From positions 62,001-126,000 of the forward strand of contig NZ_BONP01000010.1 of the NCBI RefSeq assembly GCF_016862775.1: DNA of 64,000 nt, read 5' to 3'. A program made the position numbers and the translations under genes. Source of the DNA: Cellulomonas phragmiteti (lineage in GTDB: Bacteria; Actinomycetota; Actinomycetes; Actinomycetales; Cellulomonadaceae). Under the pieces are notes generated by a model. The model did not search any database. It was given only the letters and a program-made list of their open reading frames with translations, and had not been told where the DNA came from. Positions 3,732-63,866 of the stretch are shown in pieces (position 1 is the stretch's first letter; every line of letters begins with the position of its first letter).

Positions 3732-4784
3732 ATGGCCGTCAGGCGACAGCCCACGCTGCGCGACGTCGCAGCAGCGGCAGGGGTGGCCGTGTCGACCGCG
3801 TCGCGGGCGCTCACGCGGCCCGGTCGCGTCAACGCCGACACGGCCGACCGCGTCGTGGCGGTCGCCAAGGAGCTCGGGTACATCCCCAGCGCCTCGGCCC
3901 GTGCGCTGCTCTCGGGCCGCACCGCGACCGTCGCGCTCGTGCTCCCCGACGTCACCAACCCGTTCTTCTTCGGCCTCGTGCGCGGCACGGGGGCCCGCCT
4001 GCGCGAGTCCGGGTACGTGCAGGTGCTCGCGGACACCGAGGAGTCCGCCGAGGTCGAGCTCGACACGCTGCGCAAGCTGCGCGGGCAGGTCGACGGCGCC
4101 GTCCTCGCCGCCTCGCGGCTGTCCGACGAGCAGATCGCCGGTGCGGCCGCGGACCTCGCCCTCGTCGTGGTCAACCGGACCATCCCCGGCACGCCCGGCG
4201 TGCTGCTCGACACCGCCGGCGGCATGGTGCAGGCCCTCGAGCACCTGGCCGGGCTGGGGCACACCCGCGTCGTCTACGCCTCGGGACCCGTGACGTCGTG
4301 GTCCGACCGCCGGCGCCGCGAGGCGCTCGAGCCCGCGGCCGCCCGGCTCGGCGTCGAGCTCGTCGTGCTCGGTCCGTACGCGCCCGTGCGCTCGTCCGGC
4401 GCGCAGGCCGCCGACGCGGCCCTGGAGGCGGGGGCCACCGCCGTGATCACGTTCAACGACCTGCTCGCGTTCGGGGTCCTCGAGCGCCTCGACGCGCGGG
4501 ACGTCCCCGTGCCCGGGGGGATGAGCGTCATCGGGTGCGACGACATCTTCGGCGCCGACCTGGTGCGTCCCGCGCTGACGACCGTCGAGTCACCCGTCGA
4601 GCGCGCCGGTCGCATGGCCGCCGACCTGCTCCTCGCGCGCCTCGAGGGCGACCGCCCGGGCGACGAGGACGACCTCGGCGGCGATCCCGACGACGAGCCC
4701 GCCGTGGTCGCCCGTGGCGCCGCCGACCCCGTGCTGCTGCCGACGCACCTGGTGGTCCGGTCGTCCACGGGGCCGGTGGACTGA
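3732..4784 (+). CDS. LacI-family transcriptional regulator
   Basis: This is a 350-aa sugar-responsive repressor. The N-terminal helix-turn-helix with hinge is at residues 8-60 ([21 protein letters not shown], then the [11 protein letters not shown] hinge helix). It is followed by a periplasmic-binding-protein-like ligand domain ([13 protein letters not shown], then [18 protein letters not shown]). There is an unusual acidic insertion rich in D, E and G near the C-terminus, before the final beta strand. It is divergent from manD-aguA and the intervening operator fits its DNA-binding class, so it most likely senses glucuronate or an aldouronic acid. The inducer is inferred from context only. 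The ATG is preceded by GGGAGG. Confidence 0.93.
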
Positions 4785-35950: not shown

Positions 35951-35956
35951 GGTCCT

Positions 35957-36050
35957 CCCATCGTCTCTGGCGGTAGCACCCTCGGCCACGGTCTCCCGTG
36001 CGGGTTGCTGCGGCGTCGTCGAGCCAGATCTCTCGGCCGCTCTGGATGGT
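35957..36050 (-). promoter_or_regulatory. SAM riboswitch (S-box, SAM-I type)
   Basis: On the minus strand the core shows CCATC-AGAG, GAGAGATCTGGCTCGACGA, GCAGCAACC and GGTGCTACCGCC, ending in GACGATGG. These are the conserved joining and P2/P3 segments of the S-box aptamer. P1 pairs CCATC (36049-36045) with GATGG (35962-35958). The ribosome-binding site GGGAGGA begins within P1's 3' strand, 4 nt before the rhodanese ATG, so SAM binding would hide it and reduce translation. No separate terminator is seen. Confidence 0.82.
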
Positions 36051-36058
36051 CGCCGAGG

Positions 36059-36797: not shown

Positions 36798-36912
36798 GGT
36801 CATGAGCGCCAGCGTCAAGCCCCGGCTCGCTGGCCGGCAACCCTCCTCCGCGGTGGGGTGCCCCGGGTGACGACCAGGCCGTGCACCGTTCGGTGCCGGC
36901 AAGCGCGGGACC
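36798..36912 (+). promoter_or_regulatory. SAM-IV riboswitch
   Basis: The sequence follows the actinobacterial SAM-IV consensus block by block. It begins GGTCATGAGCGCCAGCGTC, continues with AAGCCCCGGCT, GCTGGCCGGCAACCC, CCGCGGTGGGGTGCCCCGGG and TGACGACCAGG, and ends with CGGCAAGCGCGGGACC. P1 pairs GGTC with GACC. The downstream gene is the cysteine-desulfurase-like protein at 36947. A possible anti-termination or sequestering hairpin (GGGACCTCACGGGTCCC, 36907-36923) lies between aptamer and start. Confidence 0.93.
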
Positions 36913-39558: not shown

Positions 39559-40164
39559 TCAGTCGTCGACGACCAGCCCCACGTGGTGCGCGAGCAGCGG
39601 CGCGAGATCCAGGAGCTGGTCCCGGGTGACCTTGGCGCCGCCGAGCCCGCCGACGCCCTCGAGGACGCGCAGCCGGGCACCGCGCAGGTCGCAGTCGGCG
39701 AGCCGCGCCGCGGTCGTGTCCAGCCGGCGCACGTCGCAGTCGACGACCACGAGGCGCTGCACGCGCGCGTGGCTGAGGTCGAGGTCGCCGAGCGTGACGT
39801 TCTCGAGCCGCAGCTCCTCCACCGTGGACTCGCGCAGGTCGAGGTAGTCGATCTTGCCGCCGGTCACCGTCACCCGGGTCCACGTCGAGGCGAACGCGGT
39901 GAACGCCCCGATGCGCAGGTCCGTCATGGTCGCGTCGCGCCACGTGGACGACGGGGCCCGCAACGCCCCGGCCCGCACGCCCGTCCACGACGTGTCGAGG
40001 ACGCGCGCGCCGTCGAGCACGACGCCCTCCAGGTCGCAGTCGTCGAGCGTGCAGTCGAGGAACCGCGCGCGCGACGCGTCACGCTGCGTCAGGTCCAGAC
40101 CACGGAAGGCCAACCCGTCGAGGTCGGCGTCGGGTTCGAGGTCGTAGGCGTCACCGCTGAGCAC
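39559..40164 (-). CDS. Pentapeptide-repeat-like (right-handed beta-helix) protein
   Basis: The product is 201 aa. About 170 residues consist of irregular five-residue turns such as LAFRGLDLTQRDASRARFLDCTLDDCDLEGVVLDGARVLD and LDLSHARVQRLVVVDCDVRRLDTTAARLADCDLRGARLR (landmarks FLDCTLDDCDLEG, LADCDLRGARL). This resembles pentapeptide-repeat proteins, which fold as square beta-helices. Some mimic DNA and inhibit gyrase, but no role can be given here. GTG 40164 is the best start. The same strand upstream is open through the tandem repeats, which I do not consider coding. Confidence 0.75.
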   Translation of the reverse strand: MLSGDAYDLEPDADLDGLAFRGLDLTQRDASRARFLDCTLDDCDLEGVVLDGARVLDTSWTGVRAGALRAPSSTWRDATMTDLRIGAFTAFASTWTRVTVTGGKIDYLDLRESTVEELRLENVTLGDLDLSHARVQRLVVVDCDVRRLDTTAARLADCDLRGARLRVLEGVGGLGGAKVTRDQLLDLAPLLAHHVGLVVDD

Positions 40165-40205
40165 CCCCCGAGCCTGCCACCACCCCCCGACACCCGTGGG
40201 GTGGC

Positions 40206-40523
40206 GAGAGCGCATTCCAGCCCCCGGGGGTGGTGAGAGTGCGATCCAGCCCCTGGGGTGGTGAGAGCGCATTCCAGCAACCCCTTGGGGGGTGAGAGGG
40301 CAATCCAGCAACCCCCTGGGGTGGCGAGAGCGCATTCCAGCCCTCTGGGGTGGTGAGAGTGCAATCCAGCAACCCCCTGGGGTGGTGAGAGCGCATTCCA
40401 GCCCTCTGGGGTGGTGAGAGTGCGATCCAGCAACCCCCTGGGGTGGCGAGAGCGCATTCCAGCAACCCCTGAGGTGGTGAGAGTGCAATCCAGCCCACCT
40501 GCGGTGGCGAGAGTGCCATCCGA
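40206..40523. repeat. Tandem array A: 11 units, 28-32 bp period, alternating subtypes
   Basis: Eleven copies of a unit with the core GAGAG-Y-GC-NNTCCAG begin at 40206, 40235, 40263, 40294, 40326, 40355, 40387, 40416, 40448, 40479 and 40509. Odd units 1-9 read GAGAGCGCATTCCAG and even units read GAGAG(T/G)GC(A/G)ATCCAG. Linkers are CAACCCC-TGGGGTGG-like with a CCCCTGGGG palindrome. The array fills the gap between the pentapeptide-like gene start (40164) and the MaoC-like gene stop. All three minus-strand frames are open across it. Confidence 0.95.
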
Positions 40524-40530
40524 CCGTCCA

Positions 40531-40640
40531 CTGGATTGCCCGCGCCGCGGGTGGGCTGGATTGCTTTCTCGCGCGCGCGGATGGGGCGGGTGCTCGCTCG
40601 CGCGCGGAGGGCTGGATTGCTCTCTCGGCGCGGGGGGGTG
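40531..40640. repeat. Inverted, diverged copies of the array A unit
   Basis: CTGGATTGC occurs at 40531, 40556 and 40612, the last two followed by TTTCTCGCG and TCTCTCGGCG. These are reverse-orientation relatives of the array A unit, giving the whole gap (40165-40644) an inverted layout. The last copy lies just beyond the MaoC-like gene stop. Nothing else is recognisable in this interval. Confidence 0.8.
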
Positions 40641-40644
40641 GGGG

Positions 40645-41541
40645 TCAGGGGTGGAGCGGGGTGACCGTGCCGGCGAGGTGGAGGCGGCCCGAGCGCGGGT
40701 GCCACGCCGTGAACGCGAAGCCGTCGGCCTCGGGCACCACGCGGACGTCGGGCGTCGCGGGCAGCAGCACGGGCGCCGCGAACTCCACCGCCCACGTGAA
40801 CGCGTCGCCCCGCGCCGCGCCGACGTCGGCGAGCGCGCGCGAAGCCGTGTACATGCCGTGGGCGATGGCACGCGGGAACCCCAGCGCGCGCGCCGTCACC
40901 GGGGACAGGTGGATGGGGTTGCGGTCACCGGAGACGGCCGCGTAGCGCCGGCCGACGTCCGCGGGCAGCTCCCAGCGACCCGTCCGCACGGGCGGGGTGA
41001 ACGCGGGACGCTCCGCGTCGTCGCGGGGCGCGTCCGGCAGGCGCACGCCCTTGGCGAGGTACGTCGAGACGCCCAGCCACGCGACCGCCCCCGCGGTGCT
41101 CACCTCGGTGACCAGGTCGACCTGCGTCCCCGAGCGGTGCGGGCGCAGGTCCCGGGCCCACGCGCGCACCGAGAGCCGGTCGCCGAGCGTCAGGGCCTGC
41201 CGCTGCTCGACCCGGTTGGCCACGTGGACCATGCCGAGCAGCGGCAGCGGGAAGTCCGGCCGGACCATCAGCGCCATCGCCACGGGGAACCCGAGGACGT
41301 GCACGTACCCCGCGGGCAGGGCGTCCGTCGCCGGCTCGTGCAGCAGGTGCTGGTAGGTGGTCAGGTGGTCCGGCTCGGCGCGGACGTCGTCGACGACGTA
41401 CGTGACGTCAGGCAGGGCGGGGGACGGGGTCCGCGTGCCGCGCGCGGCCGCGAGCCGCGCCGCCGCCCACGCCCCGCGCCCGTACAGGCCACCCAGACCC
41501 GGCACGCGCGGCAGCGCGACCTGCGTCGCCGGCGACGTCAC
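40645..41541 (-). CDS. MaoC-family acyl dehydratase (hotdog)
   Basis: The product is 298 aa, a double-hotdog enoyl-CoA hydratase/dehydratase of the MaoC type. The hydratase motif is YAAVSGDRNPIHLSPVTARALGFPRAIAHGMYTASRAL, with catalytic Asp and His in DRNPIH. It is translationally coupled to the upstream reductase gene (GTGA overlap). It supplies the hydration step in a fatty-acyl cycle, probably beta-oxidation or short-chain fatty-acid synthesis. Repeat-rich DNA follows its stop. Confidence 0.9.
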   Translation of the reverse strand: MTSPATQVALPRVPGLGGLYGRGAWAAARLAAARGTRTPSPALPDVTYVVDDVRAEPDHLTTYQHLLHEPATDALPAGYVHVLGFPVAMALMVRPDFPLPLLGMVHVANRVEQRQALTLGDRLSVRAWARDLRPHRSGTQVDLVTEVSTAGAVAWLGVSTYLAKGVRLPDAPRDDAERPAFTPPVRTGRWELPADVGRRYAAVSGDRNPIHLSPVTARALGFPRAIAHGMYTASRALADVGAARGDAFTWAVEFAAPVLLPATPDVRVVPEADGFAFTAWHPRSGRLHLAGTVTPLHP

Positions 41542-42957: not shown

Positions 42958-43072
42958 CTGGATCGCTCTCTCGCGGGGGAGAGGGCGGCTGGATCGTCCT
43001 CTCGCGGGGGAGAGGGGGGCTGGATCGTCCTCTCGCGGGGGAGGGGGGCGGCTGGATCGCTCTCTCGCGGTG
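42958..43072. repeat. Tandem array B: four units, 31-32 bp period
   Basis: CTGGATCG(CTCT/TCCT)CTCGCGG recurs at 42958, 42989, 43020 and 43052, with GGGAGAGGG-type linkers. The core resembles the array A unit on its opposite strand (CTGGATTGC-CTCTC). It fills the gap between the reductase start and thiolase stop. Confidence 0.93.
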
Positions 43073-43090
43073 AGGGGGTGATCCAGCCGC
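43048..43090 (-). terminator. Hairpin after the thiolase gene, formed by the last repeat unit
   Basis: GCGGCTGGATC (43048-43058) and GATCCAGCCGC (43080-43090) form perfect 11-bp arms around a 21-nt loop. The hairpin begins 3 nt after the thiolase stop on the minus strand. It could terminate the thiolase transcript. Confidence 0.6.
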
Positions 43091-53295: not shown

Positions 53296-53300
53296 GTCCG

Positions 53301-53342
53301 GTCCTGGTCCTGGTCCTGGTCCTGGTCCTGGTCCTGGTCCTG
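53301..53342 (+). repeat. (GTCCTG)7 hexanucleotide tandem repeat
   Basis: Seven perfect tandem copies of GTCCTG sit between the lipoprotein stop (53295) and the terminator hairpin. A repeat of this kind is prone to length change by slippage. It lies in the 3' UTR, so phase variation of coding sequence is not expected. Confidence 0.97.
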
Positions 53343-53345
53343 GAA

Positions 53346-62477: not shown

Positions 62478-63866
62478 ATGTCCCCCCGCACGATGGCGGC
62501 ACCAGCCGCCCGGCGCACGATCGTCGCCGCCCTCGCGGCGACCGCCGTGGCCGCCACCGGACTCACCGCACTGGCCACGGCGGCGAACGCCGCCCCCGGG
62601 TGCCGCGTCGACTACGCCGTCAGCAGCCAGTGGTCCGGCGGCTTCGGTGCCAACGTCACCGTCACCAACCTCGGCGACCCCCTGTCGTCCTGGGACCTGC
62701 GCTGGACCTTCCCGAACGGCCAGTCGATCCAGCAGCTGTGGAACGGCACGGTCTCGCAGTCCGGCGCGCAGGTCTCGGTGCGCAACGTGGCCTGGAACGG
62801 CAGCCTGGGCACCAACGCCAGCGCGCAGCTGGGCTTCAACGGCTCGTGGAGCGGGGCGAACGGCGTCCCGACGTCGTTCACGCTCAACGGCACCACCTGC
62901 ACCGGTGCGGTGACGCAGCCGACGACTCAGCCGACCACCCAGCCCACGACGCAGCCCACCACGCAGCCGACGTCGCAGCCCACCACGCAGCCGACGACCC
63001 AGCCCACGACGCCGCCGGTGACCAGCGGCGACTTCTACGTCGACCCGCAGACCGCCGCGTACGCCGCGTGGCAGGCCGCGTCCGGCAACGACAAGGTGCT
63101 GCTCGCCAAGATCGCGCAGACGCCGCAGGCGCTGTGGATCGGTGACTGGGCGACCGCCCAGGCCACGCAGGAGCAGGTGCGGGACTACACCGGCCGCGCG
63201 CGCGCCGCCGGCAAGACGGCCCAGATCGTCGTCTACGCGATCCCGGGCCGTGACTGCGGCTCGTACTCCGGCGGCGGCGTCTCGACGTCCGAGTACGCGC
63301 GCTGGATCGACACCGTGGCCGCCGGCATCCAGGGCAACCCCTGGGTGATCCTCGAGCCCGACGCGCTCGCCCAGCTCGGCGACTGCAACGGCCAGGGGGA
63401 CCGCGTCGGCTTCCTCCAGTACGCCGCGAAGGCGCTGACCGCCCGGGGTGCGCGGGTCTACATCGACGCGGGCAACTCGGCGTGGCTGTCGGCCTCCGAG
63501 GCCGCCAACCGCCTCAACCGGGTCGGGTTCAGCGACGCGGTCGGCTTCGCGCTCAACGTGTCGAACTACCGGACGACGGCCGAGGCGAAGGCGTACGGCC
63601 AGGAGGTCTCGCGCCTCACCGGCGGCAAGCGGTTCGTCATCGACACGTCCCGCAACGGCAACGGCGCGACGGGCAGCGAGTGGTGCAACCCCAGCGGGCG
63701 CGCCCTCGGCGACCGGCCGACCCGGGTCAACGACGGCAGCGGTCTGGACGCGCTGCTGTGGGTCAAGCGCCCCGGCGAGTCGGACGGCACCTGCAACGGC
63801 GGCCCGACGGCCGGCGCCTGGTGGCAGGCCATGGCACTGGAGCTGGCCCGCAACGCCCGGTGGTGA
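62478..63866 (+). CDS. cenA: Endoglucanase, CBM2-linker-GH6 (CenA-like)
   Basis: This secreted beta-1,4-endoglucanase hydrolyses cellulose with inversion. Its 462 aa are arranged as signal peptide (cleavage after ANA, residue 38), CBM2 (about 39-145, CRVDYAVSSQWSGGFGANVTVTNLGD...TCTG), a TTQP-repeat linker (about 146-180) and GH6. The catalytic region has D259 in IPGRDCGSYSGGG and proton donor D295 in VILEPDALAQLGDC. Their 36-residue spacing equals that in C. fimi CenA, and GESDGTCNGG carries the putative base. RBS GAGGAG precedes ATG 62478. It is a clear CenA ortholog. Confidence 0.97.
   Translation: MSPRTMAAPAARRTIVAALAATAVAATGLTALATAANAAPGCRVDYAVSSQWSGGFGANVTVTNLGDPLSSWDLRWTFPNGQSIQQLWNGTVSQSGAQVSVRNVAWNGSLGTNASAQLGFNGSWSGANGVPTSFTLNGTTCTGAVTQPTTQPTTQPTTQPTTQPTSQPTTQPTTQPTTPPVTSGDFYVDPQTAAYAAWQAASGNDKVLLAKIAQTPQALWIGDWATAQATQEQVRDYTGRARAAGKTAQIVVYAIPGRDCGSYSGGGVSTSEYARWIDTVAAGIQGNPWVILEPDALAQLGDCNGQGDRVGFLQYAAKALTARGARVYIDAGNSAWLSASEAANRLNRVGFSDAVGFALNVSNYRTTAEAKAYGQEVSRLTGGKRFVIDTSRNGNGATGSEWCNPSGRALGDRPTRVNDGSGLDALLWVKRPGESDGTCNGGPTAGAWWQAMALELARNARW
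62914..63012 (+). repeat. 12-bp coding repeat of the cellulase linker
   Basis: The linker DNA repeats a 12-bp unit encoding Thr-Thr-Gln-Pro, eight or so times with a few substitutions (one Ser). This differs from the (Pro-Thr)n box of C. fimi CenA. Confidence 0.9.

Follow-up and report, generated by a model that had tools for sequence, protein, structure and literature searches.

What is an array of short, regularly spaced repeats doing in the gap between a MaoC-like dehydratase gene and a pentapeptide-repeat gene? In the 64,000-nucleotide stretch of DNA analysed here (the window), an initial annotation had described this array (array A) as eleven direct units recurring every 28 to 32 bp in a gene desert, the first ten alternating strictly between two subtypes so that the effective unit would be a dimer of about 60 bp, with inverted, diverged copies beyond. 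Two explanations were offered: duplication of a dimer, or selection for two half-sites on one face of the DNA.

Structure of array A

Gene calls, made throughout with a purpose-written codon-usage script, place the array in the following setting.

40165..40644, no strand: intergenic gap of 480 bp with array A inside; the MaoC-like gene lies upstream of it and the pentapeptide-repeat gene downstream (gene calls, Pfam)
40206..40523, plus strand: eleven direct cores, the first ten ATTCC and RATCC by turns, with a 61-bp dimer (Tandem Repeats Finder and core listing)
40531..40545, minus strand: inverted, diverged core CTGGATTGCCCGCGC (core listing)
40556..40570, minus strand: inverted core CTGGATTGCTTTCTC (core listing)
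40612..40626, minus strand: exact core CTGGATTGCTCTCTC in inverted orientation, 18 bp away from where the MaoC-like gene ends (core listing)
39559..40164, minus strand: pentapeptide-repeat gene, its called start 41 bp from the first core of array A (gene call, Pfam)
40645..41541, minus strand: MaoC-like dehydratase gene, ending 18 bp from the last core of array A (gene call, Pfam)
42958..43086, minus strand: another array of this family, made up of four CTGG-oriented cores plus one inverted core (core search, gene calls, Pfam)

The eleven direct cores, of the GAGAGNGCNNTCCAG type, start at 40206, 40235, 40263, 40294, 40326, 40355, 40387, 40416, 40448, 40479 and 40509, giving core-to-core spacings of 29, 28, 31, 32, 29, 32, 29, 32, 31 and 30 bp. 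Cores 1 to 10 alternate between GCATTCCAG and GCRATCCAG without exception, as had been claimed, and core 11 reads GCCATCCGA. The proposed dimer was borne out by Tandem Repeats Finder, with which a 61-bp period scored best (88% matches, versus 77% at 29 bp and 79% at 32 bp), and three inverted copies, CTGGATTGC, follow the direct cores at 40531, 40556 and 40612. The gene desert had to be given up: the array occupies a 480-bp gap between two called minus-strand genes. The second array sits between thiolase and short-chain dehydrogenase genes, both on the same strand.

Within the fetched loci of the genome that carries the window (G000), which were picked around exact RATCC cores and so define the part of the genome covered by this count, there are five cores of the ATTCC subtype, and all five lie in array A. 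Because of this confinement we take the strict alternation to be the likely trace of an amplified two-unit 61-bp block, and the duplicated dimer of the initial annotation fits the alternation and the best-scoring period as well.

A repeat family of one Cellulomonas clade

Array A belongs to a large family. The 15-mer core CTGGATYGCNCTCTC has 92 exact matches across G000, far beyond chance when set against none for a control pattern read backwards, and 164 when one mismatch is allowed. These counts are lower bounds, because arrays reach ten contig ends: cores lie within about 200 bases of the ends of C2, C7, C18, C23, C24, C30 (both ends), C35, C36 and C42, as if the arrays were breaking the assembly. 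The initial annotation had named the absence of further copies as the outcome that would count against it, and the abundance of cores in this genome and in its relatives contradicts that outcome.

A degenerate 18-mer, GYGAGAGNNCRATCCAGY, was present in 10 of 200 family-level genomes, comprising 10 of 60 from the same genus and 0 of 140 from other genera. With G093 and G101, both outside that 200-genome draw, the bearers number twelve, and the same twelve, no more and no fewer, share 91% or more identity with G000 in the Lsr2-like protein, where the next genome reaches 85%. Matches to the 15-mer with one mismatch range within the clade from 10 (G100) and 22 (G096) up to 312 (G016), compared to at most 7 in each remaining genome of the genus. 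The exact 15-mer occurs once each in G045 and G049, from other genera, and once in G065, from the genus but outside the clade; exact 18-mers are scarce in two clade members, G100 (4) and G096 (11). Because the 18-mer bearers coincide with the group defined by the Lsr2-like protein, and few cores occur elsewhere in the genus, the repeat family is, by these genome comparisons, the mark of one 12-species Cellulomonas clade.

Among named records, a closely spaced inverted pair of cores was found in Cellulomonas avistercoris, C. iranensis, Cellulomonas sp. B6 and a Cellulomonas metagenome bin, a partial list, since the search covered spacers of 4 to 8 bp. The same inverted-pair pattern matched no stretch of the viral contigs, and carriage of the repeat by viruses was set aside. 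At the gathering threshold, Rfam matched nothing at the arrays in the window, leaving no known RNA family to which they could be assigned; its only matches there were a SAM-IV riboswitch (36798-36911, plus strand) and a SAM (S box) riboswitch (35955-36052, minus strand), on opposite strands within 1 kb of each other. Among the papers listed in our literature searches, none described this family, and the available part of PMC12306157 does not mention Cellulomonas.

Unit structure and helical phasing

Each unit consists, in order, of a C-tract, SGY, GAGAGNGCRATCCAG and Y, making a polar, asymmetric site of 15 to 19 bp. In an ungapped logo built from one exact core per array (104 arrays in G000, G093, G101 and G102), positions -16 to -8 are C-rich, -3 is C or G, -2 is G, and -1 is C or T; after GAGAGNGCRATCCAG come C or T and two weak C positions, and elsewhere the logo is near background. 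Variants differ by species. The N position is A in 34 of 41 G093 arrays and T in 15 of 28 G101 arrays, GAGAGGTCGATCCAG accounts for 9 of 10 G096 sites among the matches listed, and at the Lsr2 junction the units of G068 are of the GAGCCGTCACTCCAG kind, with a period of about 41 bp. This last array, at about 1970-2150 of locus L186, stands where relatives carry the standard core.

Spacings between neighbouring cores follow the turn of the helix in two of three pair classes. Taking cores with at most one mismatch from nine genomes, and one spacing per array and length class, same-orientation neighbours (n = 149) gave R = 0.40 at 10.5 bp, with a best period of 10.7, and pairs with their CCAG ends facing (n = 68) gave R = 0.60, with a best period of 10.3. 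None of 2,000 control sets jittered by up to 6 bp reached the value of either class. Phasing was absent from pairs with their CTCTC ends facing (n = 61), where 102 of 2,000 jittered sets reached the observed value. For the same-orientation and CCAG-facing classes, respectively, R was 0.53 (n = 37) and 0.74 (n = 22) in G093, 0.35 (n = 42) and 0.74 (n = 14) in G101, and 0.30 (n = 49) and 0.50 (n = 13) in G000; with exact cores only, the best periods were 10.6 and 10.4. The sampled pairs, like the clusters treated below, include orthologous loci, and the statistics are not independent. A peak of same-orientation spacings at 31 bp may reflect the length of C-tract plus core. We read the phasing as the pattern expected when proteins come together along the same face of the DNA duplex. 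The suggestion that array A offers sites on one DNA face is thus supported family-wide, by a period near 10.5 bp in two of the three classes of pairs, but draws no support from the two subtypes.

Cores also appear to change less than the spacers between them, depending on how units are compared. Differences per site between neighbouring units were 0.070 in the core versus 0.234 in the spacer for 106 triples with at most 4 of 13 core mismatches, and 0.074 versus 0.250 for 144 pairs with one exact core (core 0.038 after removal of 12 misaligned-looking pairs), both selections restricting core mismatches. With no limit on mismatches the comparison reverses (core 0.297 versus spacer 0.232, n = 230), because 87 of the 230 pairs have at least five core mismatches; we take these pairs to be probable misalignments of C-rich sequence.

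Distribution around the chromosome

In five single-contig genomes dnaA lies in the first 1.3 kb, and the point opposite dnaA was taken as the terminus. Of 96 clusters pooled from these genomes, which are not independent, as the species share loci, 81 fall in the half nearer the origin and 4 in the quarter farthest from it. Taken singly, every genome also departs from uniformity (Kolmogorov-Smirnov p from 0.0006 to 0.038), the sites of G093, G101, G102 and G068 being of the CTGGATCGC subtype only and the lengths of G102 and G068 being rounded.

A shortage of suitable gaps or of conserved genes would be a simple cause of this depletion, and neither is supported. The mid-chromosomal stretch of G101 from 2.0 to 2.4 Mb contains 94 tandem or convergent gaps of at least 100 bp and no cores; 400 kb nearer the origin, picked as likely counterparts of G093 segments, contain 88 such gaps and 28 cores (2 in the left part, 26 in the right). 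In four mid-chromosomal segments of G093, 13 of 14, 9 of 12, 9 of 9 and 7 of 11 genes have G101 counterparts of at least 70% identity, and in three origin-side segments 7 of 14, 8 of 11 and 6 of 9 do. The other four of the eleven G093 segments sampled (at 2550, 2650, 3860 and 4180 kb) had no match in the fetched G101 stretches, and their counterparts probably lie outside these. Because the middle of the chromosome has as many gaps and conserved genes, the depletion is unexplained by either.

One array pair in the depleted part of G093 (2.08 Mb) is shared with G000, where it lies beside an AbiEi/REase-like gene. In G000 locus L038 the gene stands between the two arrays (145-1050); in G093 (L136, 2644-3057) only a 137-amino-acid piece of it was called.

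Clusters as proposed sites for a putative DNA-binding protein

Our preferred reading, to which we give a probability of about 45%, is that the arrays are clusters of binding sites for a putative DNA-binding protein, acting chromosome-wide and locally amplified, with the alternation of array A as an amplified 61-bp dimer. The core would be read as double-stranded DNA by a sequence-specific protein, and neighbouring sites would be bound cooperatively from one face of the helix. Bound clusters would act on the whole chromosome, by organising the nucleoid or marking the origin side, rather than on adjacent genes. Individual arrays would grow and shrink by local tandem amplification, and amplification of a two-unit 61-bp block would have produced the alternation. 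The family, its restriction to the clade, the build of its unit, its position behind genes, the phasing, the depletion and the turnover at fixed junctions are observed; the protein, its cooperative binding and the chromosome-scale role are what we infer.

Support comes from the phasing of two pair classes, which no jittered set reproduced; from a core that changes less than the spacer in the mismatch-limited selections; from a logo near background outside the C-tract and core; and from clusters depleted opposite the origin despite available gaps. The lack of a clear strand bias points the same way. Cores fall on the two strands relative to transcription 80 versus 96 times (15 versus 26 for the stop-proximal core, p = 0.12), and among the sites listed (the first 100 of 177 in G093 and the first 50 of 123 in G101) there was no clear replichore-strand preference. 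Against the reading stand the absence of any binder found, the ParB family having one member in each of the 12 bearers; the unphased CTCTC-facing class; the chance that the 31-bp peak is mere C-tract plus core length; the greater core change in the unlimited comparison; arrays missing from whole junctions in clade members; and species-specific preferences at the N position, an outcome also expected of copying between loci.

If the arrays are protein sites, the twelve related species offer a comparison of how a site system originates, how its sequence changes and how it turns over at fixed junctions, and the sites would be a pointer to a new chromosome-organising protein in actinobacteria.

Turnover, placement and a selfish alternative

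The main rival, a possibility that we take seriously and hold at appreciably less than even odds, is a selfish or neutral repeat of the STAR or REP kind, spread by a putative transposase or by recombination, amplified by slippage and without host function. Copies would survive where they do least harm, behind stop codons, and the phasing would have been left over from the spreading enzyme or from a few founder pairs.

In favour of this alternative, one and the same junction can be filled in some clade members and empty in others. At the Lsr2 junction, six clade members carry arrays of 3 to 8 cores and G003 has one core with one mismatch; G029, G007, G096, G100 and four outgroups have none, and four more genomes gave no junction that the script resolved. 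Allowing at most two mismatches, the MaoC junction holds 13 cores in G000, 7 in G016 (where part reads N), 6 in G102, 4 in G019, 3 in G068 and 2 each in G101, G096 and G100, and none in G003, G029, G007 or the outgroup G011; G093 and G006 fall outside the resolved set, and G075 and G081 seem, by eye, to have another gene next in line. Judged by the genes on both sides, a fetched G093 array could be paired with seven of the 36 G000 arrays (of these 36, 10 have a neighbour missing at an edge), and the paired arrays differ in copy number, order and spacers. From these filled and empty junctions, and from the few copies in G100 and G096, it follows that no single array is essential. At the MaoC junction two facing units make up one long palindrome in G096 and in G100; this could be a whole mobile unit and may be the older form. 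Subtypes that are species-specific across unlinked arrays favour a spreading repeat as well.

Placement is also REP-like (PMC3733652, available part). Of 91 arrays in fetched loci, 6 have cores that fall inside called ORFs, and 11 sit at the edge of a locus or contig with a neighbour uncalled; the 75 classed, flanked by called genes on both sides and free of cores within ORFs, comprise 41 in tandem, 28 in convergent and 6 in divergent gaps. Background gaps of at least 100 bp in twenty 12-kb sample stretches of G093 divide into 48 tandem, 9 convergent and 30 divergent. The initial annotation had called for positions to be tabulated relative to stop codons, and array edges proved to lie a median of 25 bp behind stops (n = 97), compared to 87 bp from start codons (n = 53).

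REP and BIME elements, associated with RAYT transposases, are high-copy intergenic repeats found behind genes, in tandem and convergent gaps and in mixed orientations, according to the available parts of PMC2817692 and PMC3733652. The Cellulomonas arrays share this position behind genes and the preference for tandem and convergent gaps, but a single core is non-palindromic and lacks a GTAG- or CGTC-type head in the 104-array logo, and a palindrome arises only from two facing units, a long one in G096 and G100. The Y1 (HUH) transposase domain, PF01797, the one transposase family covered, was found in none of the 12 bearers and in 1 of 81 genus genomes, a non-bearer, which counts against a selfish repeat and rules out a REP/RAYT origin for the bearers.

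STAR elements of staphylococci come closer. The portion of PMC3532100 available describes a 14-bp core with recurring spacers distinct to each locus, at tens of intergenic loci, variable in copy number per locus and present in some species of the genus, with function and spreading mechanism not known. A short core, locus-specific recurring spacers and variable copy number are common to both families, and a build shared with an element of no known function is a further point for the selfish alternative. In contrast to STAR, the Cellulomonas core is unlike TNTGTTGNGGCCC by inspection, occurs in both orientations, is helically phased in two pair classes and is depleted opposite the origin; its loci are shared between species, whereas that portion of the STAR paper reports none between the species compared.

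Noc sites in B. subtilis and SlmA sites in E. coli number in the tens and are dispersed, palindromic, bound by one protein each and rarer around the terminus (PMC4726725, available part). Cellulomonas clusters are likewise under-represented around the terminus (4 of 96 in the farthest quarter), but their sites are asymmetric and clustered behind stop codons, and no extra ParB-family protein accompanies them. One ParB_N match in each of the 12 bearers leaves no Noc paralogue, and the REP/RAYT system and a Noc paralogue are excluded as explanations because Y1 transposase is lacking and ParB single. That the clusters are nevertheless actinobacterial chromosome-marking sites similar to those of Noc and SlmA, phased and asymmetric, read by a putative binder, arisen in one Cellulomonas clade and setting the origin side apart from the terminus, we consider unlikely. 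The nearest known systems are STAR elements in build and Noc and SlmA sites in distribution.

An actinobacterial counterpart is found in mycobacterial MIRU-VNTR loci, intergenic tandem arrays of variable unit number, whose units are longer than the 15- to 19-bp core with free spacers seen here. We file the Cellulomonas repeat as a new variant of interspersed intergenic repeats.

Three further observations sit poorly with a selfish repeat: loci are alike only in C-tract and core, in ungapped register; depletion where gaps and conserved genes are as many is unexpected; and the spacings are phased at 10.5 bp. If the family is selfish after all, it is an interspersed family spreading without the known REP transposase, yet phased and avoiding the region opposite the origin, and this would need explaining.

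Transcript-level and regulatory readings

Inverted pairs might instead serve at the RNA level, as transcription terminators or 3' stabilisers of mRNA. The position 25 bp behind stops and the ratio of 41 tandem and 28 convergent to 6 divergent gaps would suit such a role, and inverted pairs could fold into long hairpins. Facing arms agree somewhat above the level expected from random within-genome pairing (51 of 83 at N, 41 expected; 55 of 83 at R, 46 expected), but less than same-orientation neighbours do (184 of 244 at N, 186 of 244 at R). Moreover, 31 of 91 arrays have a single orientation, 14 of them being single cores, a sense-strand bias is not clear, and helical phasing plays no part in RNA. 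At the Lsr2 junction a hairpin-like sequence, judged by eye and common to the species shown, already stands between stop codon and array. The hairpin, the arm agreement and the single-orientation arrays weaken the terminator reading, and we regard an RNA-level element as improbable.

Operators of one regulon, controlling adjacent genes, seem more improbable still. The gap before a tandem gene is often filled by an array, the pentapeptide gene being an example, but 28 of 75 lie between convergent genes, and divergent gaps, with two promoters, hold 6 of 75. Nor does a gene family strongly recur beside the arrays: when proteins from fetched loci of three genomes, most lacking annotation, were grouped by similarity, the two largest groups flanked arrays in 3 of 15 and 3 of 6 cases. 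A gene travelling with the arrays was set aside on the same grounds.

Simple local slippage without wider meaning would account for the 61-bp dimer and for ATTCC cores confined to array A among fetched G000 loci, but is barely credible: the 92 exact cores of the genome, and the many that relatives have at unlinked loci, already contradict it.

Other features were noted along the way. In locus L035 a tRNA-Leu gene (anticodon taa; 3933-4008, minus strand) separates a called gene from the array at 4037. Elsewhere in the window, a tandem repeat with a 24-bp unit in 4.4 copies (62912-63017) lies within a called gene, and about eight copies of the hexamer GTCCTG (53296-53343) stand directly behind another.
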